Virus record (IMG/VR): IMGVR_UViG_3300031812_000021
Coordinates: 1 to 23,932 of that record
DNA length: 23,932 bases
Source: a virus
Direction: 5' to 3' (one strand)
Of the stretch, positions 3,275 to 15,946 are shown piece by piece. Every line of letters starts with the position of its first letter. Position 1 is the stretch's first letter. The translations under genes were made by a program, and so were the position numbers. Below the pieces are notes generated by a model. It did no database searches and was not told where the DNA came from. It was given only the letters and a program-made list of their open reading frames with translations.

Positions 3275-5531
3275 TGCGGTTCAATCACTGCTCGAATGCG
3301 AAGCGCTTGCGTTCGACATCGAGACGCAGCCGCACTTCCACTACCCAAGAGAGCGAACCAAGACCGCGTATAAAGCGTACTTTGCGTACCTCAAGCGAAA
3401 CCGGTGGGGTCTGACGTTTGACCCCGACCCCGACGATTTGCCGGACCCGCTGCCCCCGCCGGTCGATCACCTCGCCGAGAAGCAGCGTCTTCAGCGTCTC
3501 CTCGCCGAAGTCCCGCGCGGCGGGAAGACCTCGGCGCGGCGCATCAACGATCTTGAGCGCGCACTGGAAGCGCTCAATAGTCCGGTTGTTCCGGCGTGGG
3601 TGATGCGGCATATCGCCCGGCTGCTCCATACCGGCGACTACGGCAACGACCCGGTGCGACCCGGATTAGACCCGCGTACTTCCCGTATTTTTCTCGTCCA
3701 GTTCGCAACGCCGTCCGGCGACGCCTATTGCTTCAACGCGCTGCGCGTCGGGCTGGATATCTTTATCCCGATATTCGAGCGCGTGCCGCTGGTCGGCGCG
3801 AACCTCACCTTTGATGTGCAGTTTGTGCTGCACACCGTCGGGATTTTTCCGAAGGTCGAGTGGGATGTGGTTGTCGCGGATCGCGTCATTACGCTTGGTC
3901 TCGACTTCTCGCACTCGCTTGCCGCCATCGCCGAACGCTGGATTGGCGAGACGCTCGATAAGAGCGTGCGGGAGACGTTCAGCAACCCGCACGTGCTGGA
4001 GCCGATGCCGGAGCAAGTGGAATACGCGCTCAAAGATGTCGAACTGCTCTTTGCGATCCGGCGCCAGCAGCAGCGCCGCGCTGAGGCGCTGGGTGCGCTG
4101 GACGCGGTGCGGTTGTTCATCAGTCTCACCGTCCCGACCGCAGCGATAGAGTACTGCGGGCTGCGCATCGACGCCGTCTGTTGGGGCGAGTTGGCGGACG
4201 AGGCGGAGCGGCGGTTGCGCGCTGCGTCGGAGCAATTTGCGGAGTACCTCGGCGTCGAACCGGAGGATTTGACGAAGCGCGAACTCGTAAAGACGGCGGC
4301 GAGAATGCGCGGGATTGACATCAACTCGCTGGACAAACAAGAACTCGGCGAAGTTGAACGCGAATATGAGGATGACCCGGAAAAGCGCCGATTTTTCGAG
4401 TTGTACCGCCGGTGGTCACATTGGCAGAAGCGCGTTTCGACCTACGGACGCGGGTTTCTGTCGCACATCCACCCGTTGACCGGTCGGATACATCCGAACC
4501 TAAAGATGGCCGGGACGGACACCGGACGGTTTGCGTGCGGTGAACCCAATCTCTTGAATATCCCGCGCGGCGAAGGTGACGATCTCGACTACCGCAGCGC
4601 GTTCGTTGCGCCGGAAGGGTACGTTTTTGTGAACGCCGATTACGCAGCGATGGAACAGCGCATCGCCGCCGATCTCTCGGAAGACCCCGCGCTGCTGGCG
4701 TTGTTCCGTTCCGGCGGTGACAACCACAGCATTACCGCGGCGTTGATGTTCCACATCCGGCGCGGGGACGTTGACGAACCGACACCGACAACGCTGACGT
4801 TCCAGAACCAACCGGTTGAGGGGTACGTTCTTCCGTCGGGGTGGGATGCGCAGCGAACGGTGCGGTTTGTAATCGAAAGCGGGTTGATGGAGAGGATCGG
4901 GAAGACGTACAAGAAGACGACGCGGCAAGTCGCAAAGGTGGTTGCGTTCTTATACTTCTACGGCGGCACCCCGGTCGGGCTGGCGAAGAAGTTGCATCTA
5001 TCGGTCGAAGAGGCGGGACAATTCTTCCGCGACTTCCGGTCGGTGTATCCGGTGTTGTCGAACTGGTTTGCGGACACCGCCCGCGCGCCGTTTGAGCAGA
5101 CCGCGAAGCGTCTCGACGGTTCGACCGCCGGATACGTAACGACGTACGCCGGTCTGCGCCGCTGGTTTACGTTGCCGAAGCCTGCCGCGTCGAATAAGGA
5201 GCAGTGGCGGCAGCGCGGCGCGATCCAACGCCAGGCGATGAATTTCCCTTGTCAAGGGGGCAACGCGGTCGTTATGGCGCAAGCGATGTCAGACGCCTTC
5301 CGTCTCTGCGCGCCGCGCGAGGGCGAGGTTGAGGCGACGTTGGGGATCGAGCGGATGATCGTCGCCCCGATCTACGACGAGGCGCTGGCGATTGTTTCGG
5401 AAGCGCTCGCCGAAGATGAGGCGCAGCGCTGGCTGGAGCAGACGATGCTCAACGCGGCGCAGCGGTATATGATGCAGTGCCCGCCTGCGGTTGAAGCAAA
5501 TCCGATTTCAAAGAATTGGAGGAAATACTAA
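3237..5531 (+). CDS. Family A DNA polymerase with 3'-5' exonuclease
   Basis: Phage replicative DNA polymerase, 764 residues. The exonuclease shows Exo I FDIET (D27, E29), Exo II NLTFD (N189, D193) and Exo III YALKD (Y263, D267). The polymerase shows TDTGRF before the fingers, motif A DYAAMEQRI (D468), motif B RQVAKVVAF...YG (R563, K567, F571, Y575) and motif C IYDEA (D714, E715). All catalytic residues are present, so proofreading and synthesis should both be intact. Phe at 571 is the E. coli Pol I-like state, as opposed to the T7-like Tyr. The start chosen is TTG at 3237, because GAAAGG at 3221-3226 is suitably placed and the exonuclease motif begins soon after; it overlaps the upstream gene. 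An insert-like stretch lies at residues 55-125 (DDLPDPLPPPVD and basic helices) between Exo I and the rest of the exonuclease. Confidence 0.95.
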   Translation: MRKYINDREEALDAVQSLLECEALAFDIETQPHFHYPRERTKTAYKAYFAYLKRNRWGLTFDPDPDDLPDPLPPPVDHLAEKQRLQRLLAEVPRGGKTSARRINDLERALEALNSPVVPAWVMRHIARLLHTGDYGNDPVRPGLDPRTSRIFLVQFATPSGDAYCFNALRVGLDIFIPIFERVPLVGANLTFDVQFVLHTVGIFPKVEWDVVVADRVITLGLDFSHSLAAIAERWIGETLDKSVRETFSNPHVLEPMPEQVEYALKDVELLFAIRRQQQRRAEALGALDAVRLFISLTVPTAAIEYCGLRIDAVCWGELADEAERRLRAASEQFAEYLGVEPEDLTKRELVKTAARMRGIDINSLDKQELGEVEREYEDDPEKRRFFELYRRWSHWQKRVSTYGRGFLSHIHPLTGRIHPNLKMAGTDTGRFACGEPNLLNIPRGEGDDLDYRSAFVAPEGYVFVNADYAAMEQRIAADLSEDPALLALFRSGGDNHSITAALMFHIRRGDVDEPTPTTLTFQNQPVEGYVLPSGWDAQRTVRFVIESGLMERIGKTYKKTTRQVAKVVAFLYFYGGTPVGLAKKLHLSVEEAGQFFRDFRSVYPVLSNWFADTARAPFEQTAKRLDGSTAGYVTTYAGLRRWFTLPKPAASNKEQWRQRGAIQRQAMNFPCQGGNAVVMAQAMSDAFRLCAPREGEVEATLGIERMIVAPIYDEALAIVSEALAEDEAQRWLEQTMLNAAQRYMMQCPPAVEANPISKNWRKY

Positions 5532-5532
5532 G

Positions 5533-6225
5533 ATGACTTCGTTTTTCGGCGTCCAAATCCAAAAACCGCAGCCGCTCGTCGACGCGATCCGCGGCGTCGT
5601 TGCCGCGAAGCGCAGACCGGTCGCGGCGCGGGATCGGGTGTACGCGAGCGAGATTTCCGGTTGTGACCGACGCATCACCTTCGCGCTGTTGGGATGCGAA
5701 CCGGACGCGCCGAGGGCGGATAGTCCGTCTGCACTGCTGGGCGACGCGATCCACGCGCACTTAGAAGCGCTGCTGAAGGAAGCGTATCCGGGGCGCGTTG
5801 AAACAGAGGTTCGGGTGATGAGCGCTGCGGTGTCGGGGCGGATCGACGCGCTGCTGCTTGACGACAACGACGCGCTGACGGTCGTTGACATCAAAACCGT
5901 CAGCGCGCGCGAGTGGGCGACGCGCTCGAAGGTCGAGGAGTATATCGATCAGATCAGCGTCTACGCGGCGCTGGTCGAAGCGCAGACGGGGGTTGTGCTG
6001 CTGGTCAATCGTGATACGGGCGAGATGGAGGAACTGCGTTTCGAGATCGACCGCGCCCGCGCTGAGGCGCTGCTGTACAAAGCGTTGCGGTTGCAGTCGC
6101 TGGCGCTCGAAGGATATATCGCCGAGGCGGTCGCTTGGGGCACAGAGGAATGCCGTTGGTGCCCGTTCAGAAAACGCTGCGAACCGCTTGACAAAACGGG
6201 CGTTCTGGTGTATAGTGACGGGTAA
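5533..6225 (+). CDS. Cas4/AddB-like PD-(D/E)XK nuclease with four-cysteine cluster
   Basis: A 230-residue RecB-family nuclease. Visible motifs: GDAIHAHLE (H74), SGRIDALL (D105), VVDIKT (D119, K121) and QISVYA (Q140), matching the H-D-DxK-QxxxY signature of Cas4, AddB and RecB nuclease domains. C44 plus C207, C210 and C216 (CRWCPFRKRC) match the arrangement that holds an iron-sulfur cluster in Cas4/AddB. Such proteins resect DNA ends or act in phage recombination and replication. The ATG at 5533 is chosen over an upstream in-frame GTG-type start because GGAGG lies at 5518-5522 and the polymerase stop is just before it. No cas1/cas2 or repeat array is nearby, so a phage recombination nuclease is more likely than CRISPR adaptation. 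Confidence 0.85.
   Translation: MTSFFGVQIQKPQPLVDAIRGVVAAKRRPVAARDRVYASEISGCDRRITFALLGCEPDAPRADSPSALLGDAIHAHLEALLKEAYPGRVETEVRVMSAAVSGRIDALLLDDNDALTVVDIKTVSAREWATRSKVEEYIDQISVYAALVEAQTGVVLLVNRDTGEMEELRFEIDRARAEALLYKALRLQSLALEGYIAEAVAWGTEECRWCPFRKRCEPLDKTGVLVYSDG
6188..6216 (+). promoter_or_regulatory. Sigma70-type promoter ahead of the SSB-like gene
   Basis: TTGACA (6188-6193), a 17-bp spacer and TATAGT (6211-6216) lie at the end of the nuclease gene, about 50 bases before the next start codon. Both boxes are near consensus with ideal spacing. The -10 hexamer is identical to that of the 13570-13598 and 15054-15082 promoters, though the spacer differs. Confidence 0.6.
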
Positions 6226-7138: not shown

Positions 7139-7502
7139 CGACGTAGAGCGCTTTGTGCGCTGGTACGCGCACCTTCCCGCAGACGCACAGCTTGACCGTC
7201 ACGCGGCGCGGGCGCTGTTGCGGCGTGCGCTGGCGGATCGGGAGGCGCTGGCGGAATATCTCTTGCAGCACAAGTGCGCGCCTGCGCTACTTGGCGAGTT
7301 TATCAACAGACACTGGAACGACGCGATCAGCGACCCGCCCGCCAGCGCCGCGCTGCGTCTGGCGCTTCGCGTGACGCAGGCGCTGGAGCGCATCGAAGAC
7401 GAGCGCGACCGACGGGCGGCGTCGTGGTGGTTTCAGTTGGGGTTGGTTCCGTCGGCGCGGTCGCTGCGGTTGATATGCAAGGGGATCAACGATGCGCGAT
7501 GA
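7131..7502 (+). CDS. Hypothetical helical protein
   Basis: A 123-residue protein not recognised. Predominantly alpha-helical, rich in Ala, Leu and Arg, without cysteine clusters, signal peptide or membrane segments. It begins MSDDVERFVRWYAHLP and ends with a basic SLRLICKGINDAR. ATG 7131 overlaps the upstream stop, with AAGGAG at 7118-7123 as ribosome binding site. Its own 3' end overlaps the next gene by 11 bases, so it is part of a translationally coupled run with neighbours at 6725 and 7492. Confidence 0.7.
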   Translation: MSDDVERFVRWYAHLPADAQLDRHAARALLRRALADREALAEYLLQHKCAPALLGEFINRHWNDAISDPPASAALRLALRVTQALERIEDERDRRAASWWFQLGLVPSARSLRLICKGINDAR

Positions 7503-7929
7503 CGATCTACGCGCGGCGATGCGCTTCTTCGCTGCGCGACTGCGCGGCGCGGAGGCGACCGAAGCGCGACTGCGGCGCTGGACGCGGCGCAAACTGCGCA
7601 GTGATGCGCGGGCGGTTGCGGAACTGATGCTGAACGTCGGGTATCGACCAACGTTCATCAGATATTTTCTGCGTTATCACATCCCGACGCTCAACGAGCG
7701 CGCGGCGGTCGGGGAAACGTATGTTGATCCCAATACACCGGAAGCGCATCTCGGTCTGTGCTGGCGTCTGGATGAGGACGTACTGACCGTCTACACCGAT
7801 CTGCACAGCGCGGCGAAACGACTGCGCCAGCCCTACCGCGACCTTGCGGCGGTCTGTCTACGCTGGGGGTACGTTCACGAGACGGTTGTACAGATGCTGG
7901 CGCGGGCGTTGGAAAGGCGGAAAGAATGA
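7492..7929 (+). CDS. Hypothetical helical protein
   Basis: A 145-residue protein of unknown function. It starts with an acidic MRDDDL, then basic helices (RRWTRRKLRSDARAVAELM), a central segment NVGYRPTFIRYFLRYHIP and a C-terminal half with VYTDLHSAAKRLRQPYRDLAAVCLRWGY. The arrangement could suit a nucleic-acid-binding helical protein, but no known motif is recognised. It overlaps the previous gene by 11 bases, and its stop overlaps the next start by 4 (ATGA). Confidence 0.7.
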   Translation: MRDDDLRAAMRFFAARLRGAEATEARLRRWTRRKLRSDARAVAELMLNVGYRPTFIRYFLRYHIPTLNERAAVGETYVDPNTPEAHLGLCWRLDEDVLTVYTDLHSAAKRLRQPYRDLAAVCLRWGYVHETVVQMLARALERRKE

Positions 7930-8347: not shown

Positions 8348-8984
8348 CCTCATCTCTTGGGTTATTGCGGGCGGCGTCATCCTCGCCCTTGTCAACAGCA
8401 ACGTTGCAGACGGATTACTGAGCGCGCTCGATCTGAGCGACAACCTCAAGCGCGCGGCGGATTGGGCGCGCGGGGTGCGGGGGGTTCCGGCGGGCGTGGC
8501 GTCGGTGTGTTTCTTCATTCTCGCGTACGTCTTCGGGGCGCTCGCGTACCGCTACGACATCGTACCGACGCAGCGGTTTATGCAGCCAATTGTCGCAGAT
8601 GTGTTATCTGTGAGCGAGGAGTGGCTGGCGCTGTTCACGTTGTTTATCGCGCTACTGCCGACGCTGAGCGAGATCGCGCTCGGCGCACTGGCGCAGCGTG
8701 ACATCCCGATGCTGCGGTGGATGGTGTACTTCTTTATCTTTTTCGATATTGTCACAGACTACAACGAAGCCGCCGCGCTCGTTGAGGTCTGGCAGCGCAG
8801 CGGGTTGTTTGCGCCGTTGCCGGACGCGATTGAGGGCGCGGCGGTGGTGCTCACAAAAATAGGCTGGACGTTTGCCGCGTCCTTCGCGTTTGAGTTCCTC
8901 ACCGTTCTCCTCGCGCTGACGGCGCTGCTGCTCGCCGCGAACGTTCGCGCGCCTGGCGGCGGAAGCGGGGGAGGCGGACGGTGA
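8340..8984 (+). CDS. Multi-pass membrane protein
   Basis: A 214-residue inner membrane protein of unknown function. Hydrophobic segments at about residues 4-19, 49-71, 93-118, 124-141 and 168-202 suggest four or five membrane passes, with acidic residues inside the fourth (FFIFFDIVTDY). The C-terminus is a glycine-rich GGGSGGGGR tail. It overlaps the stop of the preceding gene and, by 4 bases, the GTG start of the FtsK-like ATPase, so the two may act together at the membrane. It could be the partner or channel of the ATPase; this is inferred from gene order only. Confidence 0.75.
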   Translation: MNDLISWVIAGGVILALVNSNVADGLLSALDLSDNLKRAADWARGVRGVPAGVASVCFFILAYVFGALAYRYDIVPTQRFMQPIVADVLSVSEEWLALFTLFIALLPTLSEIALGALAQRDIPMLRWMVYFFIFFDIVTDYNEAAALVEVWQRSGLFAPLPDAIEGAAVVLTKIGWTFAASFAFEFLTVLLALTALLLAANVRAPGGGSGGGGR

Positions 8985-10519
8985 ACGTCAGCGGGAAACC
9001 CGTCTTTTTGATGTTGTTCGCCGTTGCGGTCGCGTTCAGCGTTGACCCGATCGCCGGGGTGTTTGCGTTCCTCGCGCTGTTCGCGGCGACGAACCGCGAG
9101 GCGGTCGTGCGCGCCTACCACGCGCTCAACGACGCTGCCTACCGGGTCGAGCGTCAACTTGAGCAGCGCGGCTGGCTGCCGAACGCTGCTGCTGCTGTCA
9201 CAACACCGTATAGAAAGAAAGAAGAAGATAGTGTTGTGACGGGTGATGAGCAGACGCCCGCGCCCGCGGCTGCTGTCACAACACCTCATATAAATAAAAG
9301 AGAAGCAAGTGTTGTGACGCTTCCTCCGCCGTCGCTGTTCAACCCCGCCGACCCGCGCCCGGCGCGGTTTGCCGTTCCGCTGGGGCGCGACCAAACAGGG
9401 CGCTTCCGTTGGCTTGACTTCGGCAGCGACGCGCTGCACATCGGGCTGTACGGTACCAGTGGCTGCGGGAAGGATCACCTGCTGCGCTTGTGGTTCAGCG
9501 CGCTGCTCAACGAGCCGGGCGCGCAGTGGGCGATCCTCGACGGGAAGGGCGACTGGTTGACGCCGAACCTCGCGCGGTCGCCGCAGATGCTCTTCCCTCC
9601 CGCGGGCGGCTACGGTGATGAGGGGCAGCGGCGAATACTGGATGCAATCGGTGTAATCAACGAAGAGGCGAAGCGCCGGTTCGGGCTGCTCTTGAGCGCC
9701 GGGGTGCGCAGCGTCGAGGAGTATAACCGGGCCGCGCCCGACCCGCTGCCATTGTTGATTGTGTTGGCGACGGATATTATCGACGTTGTTGACGAGACGG
9801 AACGTTTACTGATCGCGCTGGTCAGCAAAGCGCGGGCGTTGGGGATTAGGGTGATCGTCTCGATGCAAACCCCAACCGGCAAGCGGCTGGAGTGGCGGAT
9901 GAACTTATCAACGCTCATTTCCGGCGCGCTGGTTGACGGCAGTCAAGATGCCCCGGCGCTGGGGGTGCGCGATCCGAAGGCGCTGTTGTATCGCCCGTCA
10001 CAACTGCCGCCGCCGCCGGGCGAGCGCGGGCTGTTCGTGGTGCGGCACAACAACGAGCAGTTCCTTATCCGAACACCGGCGTTGGTCGGAGACTTCGACG
10101 CGCTGATCAACGCGCGCAATAACGCAGCGCTGCTGGAGACGCTGTTGTTCAGCGCTGTCACAACACCGTATAGAAATAAAGAAGAAGCGCGTGTTGTGAC
10201 GGCTGATGAGCAGAAGTCCGTCCCGGCGCATCGGCAAGCGCTGGGACGGCGGGGACGGTCGGATACGGCATCAGAACGCGCGGGGACGGCTTCCGTCCCG
10301 TCCCCGTCCCCAAGCGTCCCCGTCCCCGACCGTCCCGAACCCGCAAAAATCGACCAAATCGGGGGTTTTCGCGGGGACGGGGACGGCGGGGACGATGCGT
10401 TGCAGGCAGCGCTTGCAGCGCTCCAGCGCGCGGGCGTTAGTCGAGAGCAGGCGCGGGCGCTGGGCGCGCGGTTCCGTAACTCAGACTGGGCGCGCGCGGC
10501 GCGGTTGAATCGACGATAG
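8981..10519 (+). CDS. FtsK/HerA-type membrane-anchored ATPase carrying three palindromic elements
   Basis: A 512-residue DNA-translocase-like ATPase. Two N-terminal hydrophobic segments (residues 6-20 and 22-38) would anchor it. The motor domain spans about residues 120-390: Walker A region GTSGCGKDHLL (158-168) and a Walker B-like strand LPLLIVLATDIIDVVD (about 256-271), followed by SKARALGIRVIVSMQTPT, which matches the R-A-x-G-I-H-x-I-x-A-T-Q segment of FtsK. Walker A has Asp (165) where Ser/Thr is normal, which is odd. Three 44-bp elements are read in frame (residues 73-87, 99-113, 393-407). Residues 407-475 are low complexity from GGGACGG repeats. The helical C-terminus (LQAALAALQRAGVSREQARALG) could bind DNA. 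Start GTG 8981 follows GGGGGAGG. Possible roles: genome translocation or segregation, or conjugation-like transfer. Confidence 0.8.
   Translation: MNVSGKPVFLMLFAVAVAFSVDPIAGVFAFLALFAATNREAVVRAYHALNDAAYRVERQLEQRGWLPNAAAAVTTPYRKKEEDSVVTGDEQTPAPAAAVTTPHINKREASVVTLPPPSLFNPADPRPARFAVPLGRDQTGRFRWLDFGSDALHIGLYGTSGCGKDHLLRLWFSALLNEPGAQWAILDGKGDWLTPNLARSPQMLFPPAGGYGDEGQRRILDAIGVINEEAKRRFGLLLSAGVRSVEEYNRAAPDPLPLLIVLATDIIDVVDETERLLIALVSKARALGIRVIVSMQTPTGKRLEWRMNLSTLISGALVDGSQDAPALGVRDPKALLYRPSQLPPPPGERGLFVVRHNNEQFLIRTPALVGDFDALINARNNAALLETLLFSAVTTPYRNKEEARVVTADEQKSVPAHRQALGRRGRSDTASERAGTASVPSPSPSVPVPDRPEPAKIDQIGGFRGDGDGGDDALQAALAALQRAGVSREQARALGARFRNSDWARAARLNRR
9197..9240 (+). repeat. 44-bp palindromic element, copy 2 (in frame in the FtsK-like gene)
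   Basis: GTCACAACAC (9197-9206), 24-bp interior with TATAGAAAGAAAGAAGAAG, GTGTTGTGAC (9231-9240). Read as VTTPYRKKEEDSVVT. The flank after it (TGATGAGCAG) is shared with copy 4. Confidence 0.95.
9275..9318 (+). repeat. 44-bp palindromic element, copy 3 (in frame in the FtsK-like gene)
   Basis: GTCACAACAC (9275-9284), interior with ATATAAATAAAAGAGAAGC, GTGTTGTGAC (9309-9318). Read as VTTPHINKREASVVT. It lies 34 bases after copy 2. Its interior is closest to copy 1. Confidence 0.95.
10157..10200 (+). repeat. 44-bp palindromic element, copy 4 (in frame in the FtsK-like gene)
   Basis: GTCACAACAC (10157-10166), interior with TATAGAAATAAAGAAGAAG, GTGTTGTGAC (10191-10200). Read as VTTPYRNKEEARVVT. 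Flanking bases resemble those of copy 2 on both sides, so copies 2 and 4 may derive from one another as a longer unit. Confidence 0.95.
10240..10394. repeat. Cluster of GGGACGG / CCGTCCC repeats
   Basis: Many copies of GGGACGG and its complement are packed here, including a perfect 7-bp hairpin (GGGACGG 10283-10289, CCGTCCC 10293-10299) and tandem CGTCCC units. They encode the low-complexity C-terminal region of the FtsK-like protein. Runs of four or more G on either strand could also form quadruplexes. Confidence 0.75.
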
Positions 10520-10531
10520 AAAGGAGTGGGT

Positions 10532-11257
10532 ATGGCTACCGTCATCTCATACGGCGGCGGGGTGCAGAGTACCGCGCTGGTGGTTTTGGTGATGCAGCGC
10601 GGCTGGCGGATCGATGAGATTATCCACGTTGATCTGCTCGACGCCGAAGCGCCAAACACGCGCGAGTACGTCGCGTACTTCGCGGGTTGGTTGCAGAACG
10701 AATACGGGCGCGGTATAACAATCATACGGCGCGATCTGTACGGGGATATGCTGAACAACCCGGCGTTCACGCCTGCGCCTTGGCGTGCACGAGACGGATC
10801 GTTTATACTGAAGCGCCAGTGCACCAGACAGTACAAAGTCGAACCGATCCGGCGCTATCTGTACGACAAGTACGCGCGCGAGAAGATACACCTGATGCTG
10901 GGGATCAGCGTAGACGAGTTCCACCGGATGCGCGATTCCGGCTTCAAGCGTATTGAGAACGTCTACCCGCTGGTAGACGAGCGCCTTACCCGCAACGACT
11001 GCCGCGCGATCCTTGAACGCGCCGGGCTTGCAACGCCGCCGAAATCTTCGTGTTGGTTTTGCCCGTATCGATCGGCGCGAAGTCAGGCGGAACTGCTCAA
11101 GCAGTACCCGGCGCTGCGCGAGATGGCGGTGGAACTGGAGCGACGCATCAATGAGGAGCGGCGGAAGCGCGGGAAAGACGAGATCGCGGTGTTGCGGGTT
11201 GATACGACGCCGGAGGAACAAAGCGACTTCTGCGAGGAGGGGTTTTGCGGCGCTTAG
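10532..11257 (+). CDS. PP-loop ATP pyrophosphatase, PAPS-reductase-like
   Basis: A 241-residue member of the adenine-nucleotide alpha-hydrolase superfamily. The PP-loop SYGGGVQSTAL (residues 6-16) is clear, followed by HVDLLDAEAPNTREY and the basic KRQCTRQYKVEPIRRYL segment typical of phosphoadenosine phosphosulfate reductase-related phage proteins. Cys pairs CWFC (C174, C177) and C-terminal CEEGFC (C234, C239) may bind a metal or Fe-S cluster. Known relatives act in sulfate reduction, tRNA thiolation and DNA phosphorothioation (DndC-like). Which applies is unknown; no dnd partners are visible. ATG 10532 is chosen over GTG 10526 because AAGGAG (10521-10526) gives proper spacing. It starts 12 bases after the FtsK-like gene. 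Confidence 0.8.
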   Translation: MATVISYGGGVQSTALVVLVMQRGWRIDEIIHVDLLDAEAPNTREYVAYFAGWLQNEYGRGITIIRRDLYGDMLNNPAFTPAPWRARDGSFILKRQCTRQYKVEPIRRYLYDKYAREKIHLMLGISVDEFHRMRDSGFKRIENVYPLVDERLTRNDCRAILERAGLATPPKSSCWFCPYRSARSQAELLKQYPALREMAVELERRINEERRKRGKDEIAVLRVDTTPEEQSDFCEEGFCGA

Positions 11258-11275
11258 CGGGTTCGGGGGGCGGCT

Positions 11276-11319
11276 GTCACAACACGCTATAGAAATAAAA
11301 GAAGAATGCGTGTTGTGAC
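11276..11319 (+). repeat. 44-bp palindromic element, copy 5 (intergenic)
   Basis: GTCACAACAC (11276-11285), interior with CTATAGAAATAAAAGAAGAA, GTGTTGTGAC (11310-11319). It lies between the PP-loop gene and the membrane protein gene, ending 18 bases before the TTG start, so it could shape that gene's 5' leader. Confidence 0.95.
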
Positions 11320-11337
11320 GGGAAAGGAGATAGCCGC

Positions 11338-11889
11338 TTGAAGTTCCGCATTCTCGCAACGTTATCAGTACTGCTGCTGAGTGCGCCGAGCGCGCTGGGC
11401 GTCCAACGCGCACTCGCGCCGACGCGCGGCGACCTCGCGGGCTGGCTTGCGGCGGTCGGAATAGAACTGGCGTATCTGTCGCTGGCGTTCGCCGCGTTTG
11501 CAGACCAACAGCGCCAACGGTTGGCGTCGCGCGTGGCGCGGGCGGCGGTGCTGACGGCGATTACGCTCAACGTTCTGGCAGACTACGCCGCGCGCGTACC
11601 GGCGGGTTTGAGCAGTGCTGCGCAGTTTCTCGCAACGTTCGACGTTTTGCTGCTGGCGCTGTCGGCGCTGGAAAGCGCGCCGCTGGCGACTCTGGCGTAT
11701 ACGCTTGCGACGTTGCTGCATACGCACGGCGGTTCGCATCCGCAGCCGCAACCGGATGCGGCGCATCCGGCGCATACGCAGCGCACTGCGTCGTACCGGT
11801 GCCCGCACTGCGGTGCGGGGCTGGCGAAGCAGCAGCAGTACGCTGCTGCGCTGCGGTACGGGCATTGCGGGGAGTGTAAGAGGAAATGA
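11338..11889 (+). CDS. Membrane protein with C-terminal zinc ribbon
   Basis: A 183-residue protein of unknown function. Hydrophobic stretches at about residues 4-22, 34-56, 68-84 and 97-125 suggest a four-pass membrane protein. A His/Pro/Gln-rich linker (GGSHPQPQPDAAHPAHTQ) follows, then a C-terminal CPHCG...CGECKRK, a four-cysteine zinc ribbon likely facing the cytoplasm. TTG 11338 is taken as start because GGAAAGGAG (11321-11329) lies at ideal distance and the N-terminal hydrophobic segment starts there. The nearest terminator follows directly (11890-11918), so this is probably the last gene of the long early operon. Confidence 0.7.
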   Translation: MKFRILATLSVLLLSAPSALGVQRALAPTRGDLAGWLAAVGIELAYLSLAFAAFADQQRQRLASRVARAAVLTAITLNVLADYAARVPAGLSSAAQFLATFDVLLLALSALESAPLATLAYTLATLLHTHGGSHPQPQPDAAHPAHTQRTASYRCPHCGAGLAKQQQYAAALRYGHCGECKRK

Positions 11890-11950
11890 AAAGCCCCATC
11901 CGTTGTCGGACGGGGTTTCTGATCTGCGTTGGGGCGTCTAAATGACGCCC
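11890..11950 (+). terminator. Tandem stem-loops ending the early operon
   Basis: The first stem is CCCCATCCG (11894-11902) with CGGACGGGG (11907-11915), one mismatch, TTGT loop, then TTTCT. A second perfect 7-bp hairpin follows: GGGCGTC (11932-11938) and GACGCCC (11944-11950). The first is a plausible rho-independent terminator; the second lacks a T run. Confidence 0.7.
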
Positions 11951-11990
11951 GCTCTGCGTTTGTCAAGATGTAATTTCGCGAATTTCCCGC

Positions 11991-12019
11991 TTGACAACCG
12001 GCGCGGGGTGTGGTAGAGT
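11991..12019 (+). promoter_or_regulatory. Accessory-island promoter P1
   Basis: TTGACA (11991-11996), 17-bp spacer, TAGAGT (12014-12019) with TGG just upstream (extended -10). The spacer end GGCGCGGGGTGTGG is shared almost exactly with the minus-strand promoter at 15054-15082. Confidence 0.85.
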
Positions 12020-12025
12020 AGAAGC

Positions 12026-12040
12026 GTGATCGATATTCAC
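12026..12040. promoter_or_regulatory. Operator-like palindrome after P1
   Basis: GTGATCGATATTCAC, an imperfect dyad at the expected transcription start. Nearly the same sequence follows P2 (13605-13619), suggesting a shared regulator. Confidence 0.5.
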
Positions 12041-12055
12041 TAGAGGAGGTCTGAA

Positions 12056-12388
12056 ATGGCTACAATCCGTATTTGGTCAGGTTCCCGGCGCGTCGTCTGC
12101 GGTGAAGATTACGAGTTCGTCAAGTACGAGGAGTTTGAGGGCGAGACCCTCGGTTCGGTTTGGGAAGAGGAAAACAGCAGAGGAACACAGACGACGTTTT
12201 ATCAGACAAACGACGGGCGTATCGTGGCGCACGTCGTTCGATGGTCTCGGTGGGAAGGAGAAGCGACGCACGCTTACATTCACGTCTTCCCCTCGATGGG
12301 AGGGGTGAATGGAGCGGCGGCGATGTTCTGGCGGGAATTGGCGCAGGCGGGCATCATCCCGCCGCTCACAGTCGGTCTGGACGAGTAG
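12056..12388 (+). CDS. Small protein of the W-x-G/FY-DG/SLED family (member B)
   Basis: A 110-residue acidic protein of unknown function. Family motifs: I-W-S-G (residues 5-8), EFEGETLGS (about 29-37), TFYQTNDGRIV (about 49-59) and a variant of the last motif (VFPSMGGV, about 80). Aromatic residues and beta-strand pattern suggest a small compact domain. It is the first gene after promoter P1 and has a near-perfect ribosome binding site (AGGAGG, 12044-12049). No membrane or signal sequence. Alternatives such as anti-restriction or anti-CRISPR roles are conceivable for such a gene in this setting but not shown. Confidence 0.8.
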   Translation: MATIRIWSGSRRVVCGEDYEFVKYEEFEGETLGSVWEEENSRGTQTTFYQTNDGRIVAHVVRWSRWEGEATHAYIHVFPSMGGVNGAAAMFWRELAQAGIIPPLTVGLDE

Positions 12389-12444
12389 CAGTTCGGGGCG
12401 ATCCAATTCGCCAAGGCGTCCCTTCGTTGTAAAGGAGGTTCAAA

Positions 12445-12801
12445 ATGCGGGTACGGGTTTGGCACGGTTGGCGGGGCGTCCACGGCAACAGAGATGTTTC
12501 ACAGTTCGTCTGGATCGAGTTCGACGGTGAACTGCTCGGTTCCCTCGTCGTTGAGGTCGACGAAGACCGAACGGACGAACGGGCGTTCTACCGGCTGTAC
12601 GACGGGTGTCTTGTCGTCGCCGAGCATCGCTACGGCGACTGGGAGAAGGGCGGCGTCGACTATGGCGTTGTGTCGGTGTACGGCAGTATTGAAGACGCCG
12701 CGCGGCGGGGCTGGTACAATGATCTCGTTCGGGTCGGCGCATACGACGCGCCGACGCTGGAACTTGATGAGTGGCTAAGCCGGTACGAGGAAGAGGAATG
12801 A
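12445..12801 (+). CDS. Small protein of the W-x-G/FY-DG/SLED family (member C)
   Basis: A 118-residue, very acidic protein of unknown function. It carries V-W-H-G (residues 5-8), EFDGELLGSL (about 30-39), AFYRLYDGCLVV (about 52-63), VYGSIEDAA (about 79-87) and the C-terminal DAPTLELDEW (about 101-110) also found in member D. Ribosome binding site AAAGGAGG at 12431-12438 precedes ATG 12445. It is probably transcribed from P1 with member B; its stop overlaps the next start (ATGA). Confidence 0.8.
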   Translation: MRVRVWHGWRGVHGNRDVSQFVWIEFDGELLGSLVVEVDEDRTDERAFYRLYDGCLVVAEHRYGDWEKGGVDYGVVSVYGSIEDAARRGWYNDLVRVGAYDAPTLELDEWLSRYEEEE

Positions 12802-13124
12802 AATTCCAGTTTGAACGACACCCGCACGCTATCTGCGTCGTACTGACCGACGCGGGCGAGTGCGACCGCATCATCACCGTCGCCCGCCCAAGCGACGCCT
12901 TCGACGCGCTCGCACTTGACATCCACACCGCCGCGTTTATGCCGCTCGACGCACTGTTTGCGCTGCCGCGCGTCGTCTGTGTCGAGATTGAACGACGCGA
13001 AGGCGGTTGGTGCGTCGAGGTCGCGTACTGGAACAAAGGGCTGGGCACGCTTGCGCAGTATGAAGCGGAAGCGGTGACGCTTTCCGAAGCACTCGCCAGA
13101 TGTGTGTGGGCGTTGGCGAGGTAG
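12798..13124 (+). CDS. Hypothetical small protein
   Basis: A 108-residue protein of unknown function. It has an N-terminal strand-rich part (HAICVVLTDAGECDRIITV), a central helix and a C-terminal VVCVEIERREGGWCVEVAYW followed by EAVTLSEALARCVWALAR. The last part follows a common small-phage-protein pattern in which a strand pair is followed by a short helix beginning at S-x-E-A. ATG 12798 overlaps the upstream stop by 4 bases, with GAGGAAGAGG before it; this is preferred to in-frame starts further upstream, which would overlap member C. The next terminator at 13146 closes this transcription unit. Confidence 0.7.
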   Translation: MKFQFERHPHAICVVLTDAGECDRIITVARPSDAFDALALDIHTAAFMPLDALFALPRVVCVEIERREGGWCVEVAYWNKGLGTLAQYEAEAVTLSEALARCVWALAR

Positions 13125-13145
13125 CGGTGCGGGGTGACGTTGTGG

Positions 13146-13178
13146 AGCGCCGGGCGAACGTCCGGCGCTTTTTTTTTT
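13146..13178 (+). terminator. Strong rho-independent terminator
   Basis: AGCGCCGG (13146-13153) and CCGGCGCT (13162-13169) form a perfect 8-bp stem, followed by a run of about ten T. It ends the P1 unit. The next gene starts only 20 bases later. Confidence 0.9.
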
Positions 13179-13197
13179 GTTTAACAGAGGAGCGGGG

Positions 13198-13548
13198 ATG
13201 ATAAATATCTGGGGCGGCTACATCGCTGCGGGCGACGCGCGGGTGTACCTGATCTCCTTCGACGGCGAGCGGATCGGTGGGATGAGCGAGCGCAACGCCC
13301 AGCGAACGTTTTACCGCGCGCACGACGGGCGCGTTGTGGTGCACGAGGTGCGGCGTGGGCGGCGACGCGGCGGGATCACATACGATCAGGCGCTGGTGTA
13401 TGTGTTTGACGATCTCGCCCAAGCGTGTATGCACCTCACCGTCAACCCGTCGCACATCGCCCAGACGCGCGACGAATCGACGTTGCTGGATGTAGACGCG
13501 CCGACACTCACGCTGGAAGAGTGGGCGCGCGGGGCGGGAACGTACTGA
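13198..13548 (+). CDS. Small protein of the W-x-G/FY-DG/SLED family (member D)
   Basis: A 116-residue protein of unknown function. Motifs: I-N-I-W-G-G (residues 2-7), SFDGERIGG (about 20-28), TFYRAHDGRVVVHEV (about 37-51), VYVFDDLAQA (about 66-75) and C-terminal DAPTLTLEEW (about 101-110), which is shared with member C. More basic in the middle (RRGRRRGG) than its relatives. ATG 13198 is preceded by AGAGGAGCGG. No promoter is visible between the terminator at 13146-13178 and this start, so expression may depend on read-through or on an unrecognised promoter overlapping the terminator. Confidence 0.8.
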   Translation: MINIWGGYIAAGDARVYLISFDGERIGGMSERNAQRTFYRAHDGRVVVHEVRRGRRRGGITYDQALVYVFDDLAQACMHLTVNPSHIAQTRDESTLLDVDAPTLTLEEWARGAGTY

Positions 13549-13569
13549 CGATTTCTCCAAAATTGGGTA

Positions 13570-13598
13570 TTGACAACGCGCGCGGGTTGTGGTATAGT
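13570..13598 (+). promoter_or_regulatory. Accessory-island promoter P2
   Basis: TTGACA (13570-13575), 17-bp spacer ending GGTTGTGG, TATAGT (13593-13598), extended -10 TGG. The upstream sequence AAAATTGGGTATTGACA is identical to the one upstream of the minus-strand promoter at 15054-15082. Confidence 0.9.
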
Positions 13599-13604
13599 GT
13601 AACT

Positions 13605-13619
13605 GTAATCGATAATCAC
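13605..13619. promoter_or_regulatory. Operator-like palindrome after P2
   Basis: GTAATCGATAATCAC, differing from the P1 site at two positions and placed the same distance from the -10 box. Confidence 0.5.
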
Positions 13620-13642
13620 TGTATCAAGAGGAGGCAACCACT

Positions 13643-13867
13643 ATGCAACGCGACGGTTTTGAGGTGTGCGGTATTGTTTGGCGGTATGATAGCGACGCGG
13701 CGGCTTGGCGCAGCCCAAGCGGGAAGTGGATTCTTTCCGAGAGCGAAGGTGTCTTTACGCTAACTTTCCCAACGGGCGCGAAGCAAAAGATTGAGGTGGT
13801 CAATATTTACGCGGCGATGCTCGGCGCATATGACTACATTTCGAGATATAACTACTGGAAGCGCTAG
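13643..13867 (+). CDS. Hypothetical small protein
   Basis: A 74-residue protein of unknown function, read first from promoter P2, with ribosome binding site AGAGGAGG (13627-13634) before ATG 13643. Rich in Trp and Tyr (W13, W22, W29; ISRYNYWKR at the end) with alternating strands FEVCGIVWRY and GVFTLTFPTG. The aromatic content and short length are typical of small phage accessory proteins. It lacks the FY-DG motif of the neighbouring paralogue family. Confidence 0.75.
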   Translation: MQRDGFEVCGIVWRYDSDAAAWRSPSGKWILSESEGVFTLTFPTGAKQKIEVVNIYAAMLGAYDYISRYNYWKR

Positions 13868-13874
13868 ACTGTAA

Positions 13875-13916
13875 GAGAGGCGCGGCTGCGAACCCCTCGC
13901 ACGCTGCGCCTCTTGT
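13875..13916 (+). terminator. Weak terminator or structured leader
   Basis: AGAGGCGC (13876-13883) pairs with GCGCCTCT (13906-13913), and an inner TGCGA/TCGCA stem lies in the loop. TTGTTGT follows, not a clean T run. It separates the genes at 13643 and 13937 and may attenuate transcription. Confidence 0.5.
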
Positions 13917-13936
13917 TGTAGAAAGGAAGAGACACT

Positions 13937-14620
13937 ATGTTGAGCACGGAACTTGCGCGCTTCTTGGATGTGGCGCTTGACGTTCAAGCACCGCCGTATC
14001 CGGGCATTCACGTCGCCGACGGAATGCTGGTTGCGGCTAGTCACGTAATGCTGCTTGTCAAGAAGTTTGAGAACGTCGTTTTTCTAAGAGGAAAGGGCGC
14101 TATCTCACCGAAGGCGGCGAAGGTGCTCGTTGCGCTGGTGGAGGCGACGTACATCGGAAGTATTGAAGTGAACGGCAACCGGGTGACCGTAACCGCCCAG
14201 AGTACGTGGTATGATGAGAAAGTCGGGGCGGAAGTGGCGGGCGGGTACCGAGAAGTGACGTTGCCGGAACTCTACTGCCGTCAAATCCCGATCAAGCGAA
14301 TGGTCGAGGTGCTAGACGACAAGGCGTTAGGGTGGGAAGTTCTTCCTCTTTCAAACAATCCGAAACTGAAGACGCTGAAAGAAGCCAACGCGAAAGACTA
14401 CGTTGCGTTGGTAGATAGCCCGCACGGCGGGTATGAACTCTTTCGCTTGAGGGACATCGAAGACACACACTGGTACAGCGTCGCCCAGTTGCGGTGTGGG
14501 CTTCGGCTGTTCGGGAAGCACTCATCCTTGATCGTGCGGCGAAGCAAAGACGGGTGGTTGGCGTTCAGCGATCAGTGGGGCTACACCTTCGCCGTCACCC
14601 CGTTCGTCAAACACAACTAG
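13937..14620 (+). CDS. Hypothetical protein, beta-rich, two similar halves possible
   Basis: A 227-residue protein of unknown function. It alternates strands and helices: LDVQAPPYPGIHVADGMLV, then ISPKAAKVLVALVEATYIG, IEVNGNRVTVTAQ, and a second half with SSLIVRRSKDGWLAFSDQWGYTFAVTPF. The ending recalls the last strands of sliding-clamp domains, but the match is weak and no clamp claim is made. Ribosome binding site GAAAGGAAGAG (13921-13931) precedes ATG 13937. It is probably transcribed from P2 past the stem-loop at 13875-13916 and is followed by the bidirectional terminator at 14675-14701. Confidence 0.7.
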   Translation: MLSTELARFLDVALDVQAPPYPGIHVADGMLVAASHVMLLVKKFENVVFLRGKGAISPKAAKVLVALVEATYIGSIEVNGNRVTVTAQSTWYDEKVGAEVAGGYREVTLPELYCRQIPIKRMVEVLDDKALGWEVLPLSNNPKLKTLKEANAKDYVALVDSPHGGYELFRLRDIEDTHWYSVAQLRCGLRLFGKHSSLIVRRSKDGWLAFSDQWGYTFAVTPFVKHN

Positions 14621-14628
14621 TACCAGAT

Positions 14629-14638
14629 GTGTTGTGAC
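14629..14638 (+). repeat. Half copy of the 44-bp palindromic element
   Basis: GTGTTGTGAC, identical to the right arm of the ten full elements, lies just after the stop of the gene at 13937. The expected left arm is absent; only CACAAC (14612-14617) is present nearby. Probably a decayed or partial copy. Confidence 0.6.
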
Positions 14639-14674
14639 GACGACGCGCGGGCTTGGCGACGGTGGGGAAAAGAA

Positions 14675-14701
14675 AACCCCGCGCTTGTTAGGCGCGGGGT
14701 T
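14675..14701. terminator. Bidirectional terminator between convergent genes
   Basis: AACCCCGCGC (14675-14684) and GCGCGGGGTT (14692-14701) form a perfect 10-bp stem with a 7-base loop. Upstream AGAAAA and downstream TTTG allow termination from both strands. Confidence 0.85.
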
Positions 14702-14718
14702 TGTGGTTGGTTGGTTCG

Positions 14719-15012
14719 TTAGATAAGCCGCAGTTCCTCAAGAGCGTATCGCTGCTCGCTCTGCGCCGCGTCCTCCAGGTTGCTGAACCGGTAGATTACG
14801 GCGCGGCTAGGTTCACCGATACCGTAGTTCTGTTCCACAATATTGATCACGACCTCACCCTCGATTGTCTGATAAACGTAGTAGGTCTTTCCTTCAATTA
14901 CGTCCTCGAACCATCCAAGTTCCTCGCCTGTGATCTCGAAGACTTTGTACTTGCTGGTGTCGTCGCCTGGCAGAAACGTTCGCTCGCCTTCCCAAATCTT
15001 GTAGGTCTCCAT
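14719..15012 (-). CDS. Small protein of the W-x-G/FY-DG/SLED family (member E), minus strand
   Basis: A 97-residue acidic protein and the only supported minus-strand gene of the window. Motifs: K-I-W-E-G (residues 5-9), EITGEELGWF (about 26-35), YYVYQTIEGEVVINIV (about 44-59) and YRFSNLEDAA (about 74-83). It is a paralogue of members A to D. Ribosome binding site AAAGGAGG (as its complement at 15019-15026) lies just ahead of the ATG, and its own promoter at 15054-15082 matches those of the + strand units. It converges with the gene at 13937 onto a shared terminator. Its orientation suggests a past inversion or insertion of a promoter-gene cassette. Confidence 0.85.
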   Translation of the reverse strand: METYKIWEGERTFLPGDDTSKYKVFEITGEELGWFEDVIEGKTYYVYQTIEGEVVINIVEQNYGIGEPSRAVIYRFSNLEDAAQSEQRYALEELRLI

Positions 15013-15053
15013 TGTGCGCCTCCTTTGAGATAGTGTTGATTTACTGTGACTAT

Positions 15054-15082
15054 ACTATACCACACCCCGCGCCGTTTGTCAA
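15054..15082 (-). promoter_or_regulatory. Accessory-island promoter P4 (minus strand)
   Basis: Read on the minus strand: TTGACA (complement of 15077-15082), 17-bp spacer ending GGGGTGTGG, TATAGT (complement of 15054-15059), extended -10 TGG. The spacer is nearly the same as that of P1 and the upstream sequence is that of P2. Confidence 0.9.
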
Positions 15083-15119
15083 TACCCAATTTTCGAGATT
15101 TTCGCCGCGATTTTGTGAC

Positions 15120-15148
15120 TTGACAATCCGGCGCGCGTGTGGTATACT
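15120..15148 (+). promoter_or_regulatory. Accessory-island promoter P3
   Basis: TTGACA (15120-15125), 17-bp spacer ending CGCGTGTGG, TATACT (15143-15148), extended -10 TGG. It is divergent from the minus-strand promoter, the two -35 boxes being 37 bases apart. Confidence 0.9.
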
Positions 15149-15151
15149 GTG

Positions 15152-15169
15152 CGCGTAGTCGATTACGCG
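15152..15169. promoter_or_regulatory. Operator-like palindrome after P3
   Basis: CGCGTA and TACGCG are perfect 6-bp arms around GTCGAT. The site is centred near the transcription start and shares the TCGAT core of the P1 and P2 dyads. Confidence 0.5.
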
Positions 15170-15183
15170 AAAGGAGACCACTA

Positions 15184-15390
15184 ATGCCCAAGCGACGCTC
15201 TGCACCAAAGCCGCGCCCCGCGCGCGAGGTTGTTATTGAGGAAGGCGCTGACTACCGCCTCCTCTACGACCGCGAGACGCGCGACTACGCGGTCGAGTAC
15301 CGCGGCGAGCCGGTCGGCTGGCGACCGACCGAGGCGGAAGCGCGCAGACTGGTTGAGACGCTGCGCTACGAGGAAGCGAAGCGCGCGTAA
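15184..15390 (+). CDS. Hypothetical small protein
   Basis: A 68-residue protein of unknown function, directly behind promoter P3. After a basic Pro-rich N-terminus (MPKRRSAPKPRPAR) it has YRLLYDRETRDYAVEYRGEPVGW followed by a helix starting TEAEARRLVETL. This strand-strand-helix pattern (D-Y-x-V-x-x-x-G-E-x-V-G-W ... EAE) is common in small proteins of unknown role in phages. Start ATG 15184 with AAAGGAG at 15170-15176. A terminator follows after 22 bases, so it is a single-gene unit. Confidence 0.75.
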   Translation: MPKRRSAPKPRPAREVVIEEGADYRLLYDRETRDYAVEYRGEPVGWRPTEAEARRLVETLRYEEAKRA

Positions 15391-15412
15391 GACGATCCTC
15401 CTTCTCCTTCTC

Positions 15413-15446
15413 CCAGAAACCCCGTCGGCAACGGCGGGGTTTCTGG
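15413..15446. terminator. Rho-independent terminator
   Basis: CCAGAAACCCCG (15413-15424) and CGGGGTTTCTGG (15435-15446) form a perfect 12-bp stem. It ends the P3 unit and shields the packaging genes from it. Confidence 0.85.
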
Positions 15447-15458
15447 TTGTTCAGCAGC

Positions 15459-15502
15459 GTCACAACACTCGATCTTCTTTTATTTATACGCAGTGTTGTG
15501 AC
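15459..15502 (-). repeat. 44-bp palindromic element, copy 6 (intergenic, reversed interior)
   Basis: GTCACAACAC (15459-15468) and GTGTTGTGAC (15493-15502). The 24-bp interior reads GTATAAATAAAAGAAGA on the minus strand, so this copy is inverted compared with the others. Confidence 0.95.
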
Positions 15503-15561
15503 ACCCGCCGCACCACCTGAAAGTAGTACTCCCCCGCGCCCGCCGTCGGATCATCAGCAGT
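15503..15561 (-). repeat. Inter-element linker, first copy
   Basis: The minus-strand reading holds ACTGCTGATGA, GGGGAGTACTAC and GGTGGTGCGGCGGG, matching in order the linker at 21293-21349. The minus strand would encode a TADD...GEYY segment. Likely a duplicated piece carried with the elements. Confidence 0.75.
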
Positions 15562-15605
15562 GTCACAACACTCTATAGAAATAAAAGAGAAGCAGGTGTT
15601 GTGAC
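15562..15605 (+). repeat. 44-bp palindromic element, copy 7 (intergenic)
   Basis: GTCACAACAC (15562-15571), interior with CTATAGAAATAAAAGAGAAG, GTGTTGTGAC (15596-15605). Together with copy 6 it encloses the 59-base linker, in inverted orientation to copy 6. Confidence 0.95.
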
Positions 15606-15721
15606 ACCGCGCGCCCGCGCCGCCGCGATCTGGTGTACGAAAAGTCTGGGTTTTTGCAGTACAATTAAAGTGAGGGGCACACAGCGCCCCGCCGGGAGAG
15701 GAGTAGTAGTAGGAGGAGGAG

Positions 15722-15946
15722 ATGAACCTTCCCTTTTCACAACCGTTGGACAAAGTGACCTACGGCGCGCTCGCTGCCGCAACCGTTGTCATTCTTGCGT
15801 GGGCGCTGCGTGAGTTCGCGGGGATTGACCTTCCCGCCGAGGTGCAGTCGGCGCTGACGGTGATGATCGGGTACGTCGTTTCGTATCTTGTTCCGCTGAA
15901 CGAAGCGGAGGCTAAAGCAATCGCTCAGACGTTCTACCGCAAATGA
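15722..15946 (+). CDS. Putative holin-like small membrane protein
   Basis: A 74-residue protein with one clear membrane segment (residues 13-29, TYGALAAATVVILAWAL), a second weaker one (42-58, ALTVMIGYVVSYLVP) and a charged C-terminus. The pattern, I-x-L-P-A-E-V-x-x-A-L then a helix ending Y-L-V-P, is seen in a class of small phage holin-like proteins. Holins form pores releasing the endolysin, but no lysin gene is visible nearby, so the role is inference. The ribosome binding site is an unusual long purine tract (GGAGGAGGAG before ATG 15722). Its stop overlaps the next start by 4 bases. Confidence 0.55.
   Translation: MNLPFSQPLDKVTYGALAAATVVILAWALREFAGIDLPAEVQSALTVMIGYVVSYLVPLNEAEAKAIAQTFYRK

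Follow-up and report, generated by a model that had tools for sequence, protein, structure and literature searches.

Near-identical sigma70-type promoters in a probable island of small accessory genes of a virus record

Introduction

The IMG/VR virus record IMGVR_UViG_3300031812_000021 carries four near-identical promoters, P1 to P4, between positions 11991 and 15148. The window analysed here is the whole record (23,932 bases; G+C 61%). Why should one virus hold four promoters so much alike, in the spacer and around the start site as well as in the hexamers? An earlier note on this DNA proposed a recent duplication of promoter cassettes, or a regulator that binds the spacer. On the evidence given below, we consider it probable that P1 to P4 serve an accessory-gene island of small units, whose host-read, activator-independent promoters double as homology for gene exchange.

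Architecture of the four promoters

The pattern TTGACA-N17-TA[TG]A[GC]T was found at four sites, and TGTGG directly precedes the -10 box in all of them.

P1 promoter, 11991..12019, plus strand: TTGACA ACCGGCGCGGGGTGTGG TAGAGT
P2 promoter, 13570..13598, plus strand: TTGACA ACGCGCGCGGGTTGTGG TATAGT
P4 promoter, 15054..15082, minus strand, diverging from P3: TTGACA AACGGCGCGGGGTGTGG TATAGT
P3 promoter, 15120..15148, plus strand: TTGACA ATCCGGCGCGCGTGTGG TATACT

The -35 boxes of the divergent P4 and P3 are 37 bases apart. The looser pattern TTGACA-N16-18-TAKAST gave no match in shuffled sequence, and its fifth match in the window, at 6188, has no GTGG and lies inside an open reading frame (5491-6225). 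P1 to P4 were also the top four sites of a sigma70-like promoter scan of positions 11200-15800. With -35 and -10 boxes sought 16-18 bp apart, all four showed 10-11 of 12 matches, a spacing of 17 bp and TG before the -10 box. Search and scan therefore bear out the positions and motifs that the earlier note had given.

When the -10 box is set at -12..-7, TGTGG corresponds to TRTGn at -17..-13. TGTG at -17..-14 is present in P1 to P4 and is 0.88-1.00 identical within promoter groups. By these features, P1 to P4 are predicted to be promoters of the host sigma70/sigmaA type with a TRTGn extended -10 element, which is an ordinary promoter type. The GTGG at the end of the spacer is this element, and is therefore not an unexplained spacer signal.

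The four promoters have further common parts that the earlier note had not listed, namely an A/T tract at -46..-41, a GTRRTCGAT block at +1..+9 in P1, P2 and P3, and a ribosome-binding site and ATG about 35-45 nucleotides downstream. The alpha subunits of RNA polymerase can bind at the position of the A/T tract. The tracts, as read from the sequence, and the start regions are as follows.

P1 A/T tract, 11980..11985, plus strand, -46..-41, proximal UP-element position
P2 A/T tract, 13559..13564, plus strand
P4 A/T tract, 15088..15093, minus strand
P3 A/T tract, 15109..15114, plus strand
P1 start-site block GTGATCGAT, 12026..12034, plus strand, +1..+9 by spacing
P2 start-site block GTAATCGAT, 13605..13613, plus strand
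P3 start-site block GTAGTCGAT, 15155..15163, plus strand
P4 start region ACAGTAAAT, 15039..15047, minus strand, an alternative start block of 10 of the 95 distinct promoters

Two features, the G/C-rich core at -29..-18 and the GTRATCGAT block at +1..+9, thus appear in the sequence beyond the sigma70 elements. The claim of the earlier note that the spacer is conserved beyond what sigma70 needs was right for this core, and not for GTGG.

Recurrence, mosaics and a lost unit

A terminase search of IMG/VR gave 59 loci, most of them at 80-97% identity. Of 26 such records of related phages, 24 contain the pattern TTGACN-N12-14-GTGRTANNNT, at 84 sites in all; the reversed pattern, used as a control, gave 0. 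Promoters of the same class also stand before the gene of the long replication protein and before the gene that diverges from it; the class is therefore phage-wide. The replication-operon promoters lack the +1 block, and their spacers are often low in G+C (GATAGGAACTTG-TGTGC), with the G/C block poor or absent. Within the class, G/C core and +1 block are therefore marks of the island promoters. These fall into groups according to the gene that follows (P1, P2, P3, P4 and a further type, P5), and the same four promoter positions recur across many related contigs.

In relatives P1 has P5 as its divergent partner. The window has lost the P5 gene and the greater part of the P5 promoter, and at 11940-11966, beside P1, the apparent end of a P5-type gene is joined to the bare P5 -35 box. 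The features of units and repeats are as follows; in addition, a CCCCG...CGGGG stem, read from the sequence, stands after the P3 gene.

Fossil -35 (TTGACA) of the lost divergent cassette P5, 11961..11966, minus strand (relatives L022, L046, L074 and L010)
Intrinsic terminator-like site closing the P1 unit (12056, 12445, 12798), 13144..13171, plus strand
Intrinsic terminator-like site closing the P4 unit, 14674..14702, minus strand; the P2 unit has the same stem on its downstream side
Inverted repeat between P2 and P4, 74 nucleotides, 76%: P2 arm 13554..13627, other arm 15025-15098

The promoters are also mosaic. One -35 and spacer sequence precedes 5-7 different start regions, and differing upstream and spacer sequences stand before the leader of MATTIRVWDGY or MAIQVWQG genes. 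P2 of the window has a P4-like upstream half inside the 74-nucleotide inverted repeat, where most P2-type promoters of relatives differ. Exchange or conversion among promoter copies would most simply account for these mosaics.

The proposed explanation starts from the observed architecture, recurrence and homology of the promoters, their mosaic combinations and the deleted fifth unit. The proposed island lies between the replication genes and the packaging and structural genes. In it, one to three small genes make up a unit, which has a promoter to itself and in most cases a terminator; units are often paired divergently (P4-P3, and once P5-P1). The housekeeping RNA polymerase of the host, with sigmaA, would read P1 to P4 at once after infection, unit by unit; expression would then be early and would need neither an activator nor a dedicated regulator. 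The promoter copies would descend by duplication from a common ancestor and be held alike by selection from about -46 to +9. Recombination would lie behind the mosaics, with exchange, loss or conversion of genes taking place at the junction that the shared promoter sequence provides.

Conservation of the spacer core and the start-site block

The core GGCGCGGGGTGTGG is exact in P1 and P4 only. P2 has the variant CGCGCGGGTTGTGG and P3 has CCGGCGCGCGTGTGG, in which the CCGGCGCG block lies 1 bp out of place with respect to the -10 box. The spacer sequence that the earlier note took as common to the set is thus shared exactly by two promoters, with a variant in P2 and a shift in P3.

Within groups, the -35 box, TGTG and the -10 box are near-fixed (0.78-1.00 identity). 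The spacer core is 0.80-0.88 identical within orthologous groups and the +1 block 0.69-0.90, against 0.40-0.68 at fourfold sites of the genes behind; the pairs compared share ancestry and are not independent, and these identities are given without a p-value. Between groups, the core identity is 0.85 for P1-P4 and 0.73 for P1-P2. For P3 against the rest it falls to 0.32-0.38, owing to the one-base shift of CCGGCGCG there. The +1 block shows between-group identities of 0.69-0.84.

No contact of RNA polymerase with spacer bases upstream of -15 is known, though spacer sequence can alter promoter activity (PMC2613000). Some sequence-dependent role of the spacer is possible, as the block outlasts the fourfold sites. 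Two points tell against the island explanation. The conservation of the core and the +1 block exceeds the known need of sigma70, and a plain constitutive promoter would leave both unexplained. In addition, strong purifying selection on the promoters could explain part of the mosaic pattern.

One alternative is that the G/C-rich spacer is the local sigmaA promoter style of a high-G+C, possibly thermophilic host, copied by the phage. The window is itself 61% G+C. The exact 16-mer spacer GGCGCGGGGTGTGGTA occurs in intergenic promoter-like sites of two unrelated virus records (L014, as TTGCAC-17-TAGGCT; L020, as TTGCAA-16-TATACT), and is therefore not exclusive to these phages. However, where unrelated viruses have promoters with these hexamers and TGTGG, the spacers are 39% G+C in contigs of 42%, and where the contigs exceed 55% G+C the values are 61% and 59% (n=8). 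The spacer of such promoters is thus no richer in G+C than its contig, whereas the spacers of this family average 79%. Furthermore, spacers are far less G+C-rich in the replication-operon promoters that these phages also carry. We consider a copied host style unlikely.

Another alternative makes the promoters one regulon, under a phage-encoded regulator that reads the G/C spacer, GTRATCGAT or both, for example a repressor on +1. In its favor are the identities given above, which in the P2 and P3 groups also exceed those of the upstream flank (the upstream 20 bases are 0.53 identical in the P3 group). ATCGAT is self-complementary, and GTRRTYGAY at +1..+9 is restricted to promoters of the island types (53 of 95 distinct promoters; 0 of 19 'other' promoters). 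On the other hand, a palindrome would need TAC at +10..+12 as its right half, where conservation is lacking (0.40/0.58/0.36), and a simple palindromic operator at +1 is thus not supported. P4 of the window has no +1 block. A reader of the core and the -10 box in fixed register would forbid the 1-bp shift seen in P3, and a spacer-reading regulator is therefore unproven. MerR-type regulation was rejected, with 17 bp in all four spacers against 19-20 bp and, by eye, no dyad recurring in one register. No convincing regulator was found in the window, which may be an incomplete genome; a sub-threshold HTH_18 match at 7492-7929 was the only one. The spacer-binding regulator of the earlier note is thus unsupported, since GTGG is TRTGn, the register of the G/C block is not fixed, this block is poor or absent in the replication-operon promoters and 17 bp is not MerR-like. 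A regulon of either form seems decidedly improbable to us.

A further alternative, that a single promoter-gene cassette was duplicated very recently in this phage, in tandem or inverted, would agree with P1 and P4 being 93% alike over 30 nucleotides and with the P2/P4 repeat. It is very improbable, as the promoter set is spread over related contigs whose genes have diverged, with no more than 31% identity between the P1 and P4 proteins. Duplication as such, which the earlier note had also claimed, is supported by the homologous promoters, the paralogous P1 and P4 proteins and the inverted repeat. P2 and P4 do share AAAATTGGGTATTGACA, within that repeat. It is the word "recent" that does not hold for the whole set, because the positions are shared by many relatives and because of the divergence of the P1 and P4 proteins. 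The upstream half of P2 is the sole remaining candidate for a recent exchange, which would have been with P4.

Genes behind the promoters

Among 93 distinct promoter-proximal proteins, 54 belong to one paralogous family, and a second cluster holds 21. We named the family IWxG from the protein start (MATIRIWSGSRR, METYKIWEGERT). A profile of its promoter-proximal members reported four proteins in the window (12056, 12445 and 13198, plus strand; 14719-15012, minus strand; E 1e-42 to 8e-18).

12056..12388, plus strand, IWxG-family protein behind P1, 110 residues; first gene of what is probably one unit, the others being 12445 and 12798
12445..12801, plus strand, IWxG-family paralogue, 118 residues (profile E 9e-25)
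12798..13124, plus strand, 108-residue protein of unknown kind, in the P1 unit
13198..13548, plus strand, IWxG-family paralogue, 116 residues, without a family promoter of its own (profile E 8e-18)
13643..13867, plus strand, 74-residue non-IWxG protein behind P2
13937..14620, plus strand, 227-residue protein, second gene behind P2
14719..15012, minus strand, IWxG-family protein behind P4, 97 residues
15184..15390, plus strand, conserved 68-residue protein behind P3 with a basic N-terminus (MPKRRSAPKPRP...), of the cluster of 21

P2-type promoters in other phages precede IWxG genes, and homologues of the 227-residue protein in relatives have their own family promoter. In the loci fetched, IWxG comprises 62 subtypes below 85% similarity. 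A 96-residue protein outside the island (MATYRDVIFWSGATDG..., 2531-2821) looked IWxG-like by eye and was put into the alignment; the profile did not report it.

The AlphaFold2 model of the P1 protein (mean predicted local distance difference test score 93.5) consists of five strands with a helix at the C-terminus. The island proteins gave nothing above the cut-offs in Pfam, PHROGs and PDB-sequence searches, and Foldseek with this model gave no match below E 0.001 in PDB or BFVD. Weak matches to NCBIfam TIGR04342 (EXLDI protein) came from 16 of 43 IWxG members (best E 2.3e-5); the P1 protein was rejected as a member, with 20 bits over a partial length against a cut-off of 32. This likeness is weak, and no common function is known. 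In VIA-align the model gave weak similarity to PURA (best Z 5.7; 60 residues, root-mean-square deviation 3.0) and to PARP2 WGR (Z 5.3; 81 residues, 4.2). The PUR and WGR nucleic-acid-binding domains are thus the nearest structures at Z 5-6, which is too weak to claim a relationship. IWxG appears to be a family of great diversity that has not been described before, and its fold is predicted with confidence.

A role in counter-defence or host takeover would suit genes that are small, diverse, individually promoted and not present in every relative. It is possible, though we hold it only tentatively, that the island is a gene-exchange device, in which a promoter uniform from about -55 to +9 provides the homology that shuffles small beta-sheet IWxG proteins between phages. 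If so, any arriving gene would be expressed at once by the host polymerase, and the shuffled proteins would perhaps act in counter-defence or host takeover. Since relatives have the same promoters before different genes, the promoters look like fixed sockets for interchangeable phage genes, and the locus offers a clean view of this from sequence alone. Where homology searches fail, the promoter signature seems specific enough to locate accessory genes of related phages that have not been cultured.

Comparison with known systems

The promoter type is already known; what stands out is the IWxG gene family and its socket-like arrangement. Kayvirus vB_SauM-515A1 (Herelleviridae) has 58 host-dependent early promoters of the form TTGACW-17-TRTGN-TATANT (PMC7698491). 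As in that phage, there are many promoter copies per genome, with the same layout and many small transcription units. Unlike in that phage, the spacer core and the +1 block are conserved here, the promoters form divergent pairs, the genes are paralogous, and the system is known from sequence alone. The start-associated sequences (SAS) of Cluster K mycobacteriophages reportedly lie at translation starts. Cluster K and Cluster O mycobacteriophages likewise carry short regulatory or repeat sequences many times per genome (PMC3203893, PMC4351075). In Cluster O, deletions were explained by recombination between repeat copies, and the repeat is mostly not at promoters (PMC4351075). The repeat described here differs from those of both clusters in being a complete promoter.

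Host and further observations

A nucleotide search with the island against annotated phages gave no match, nor did tblastn with the P4 protein against phages. A terminase search for the host among genome contigs gave distant matches alone (26-27%; Bipolaricaulota, Ralstonia and Paraburkholderia). The host may be a Roseiflexus, or another of the Chloroflexota, of hot-spring mats, which is a guess on our part. Hot-spring viral contigs are reported to cluster with Roseiflexus and to carry VirE and PAPS-reductase genes (PMC5017753).

Upstream of the island lie genes for a PAPS-reductase-like protein (10526-11257), an FtsK/SpoIIIE-like protein (8981-10519) and a Cas4-like exonuclease (5491-6225). 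The record also holds ten elements of about 44 bp (2456, 9197, 9275, 10157, 11276, 15459, 15562, 21249, 21350 and 21433). Each has perfect GTCACAACAC...GTGTTGTGAC ends, set at a constant distance around an A/T-rich asymmetric core (TATAnAAATAAAA, in either orientation). They are both intergenic and inside open reading frames, where they read as VVTTPYRKKEEDSVVT. Many relatives' loci have 3-9 copies, and three loci around replication genes have none. A small mobile element is one possible reading, and a recombination site or a binding site are others. Cluster O mycobacteriophages have 17-bp dyad repeats that are loosely comparable.

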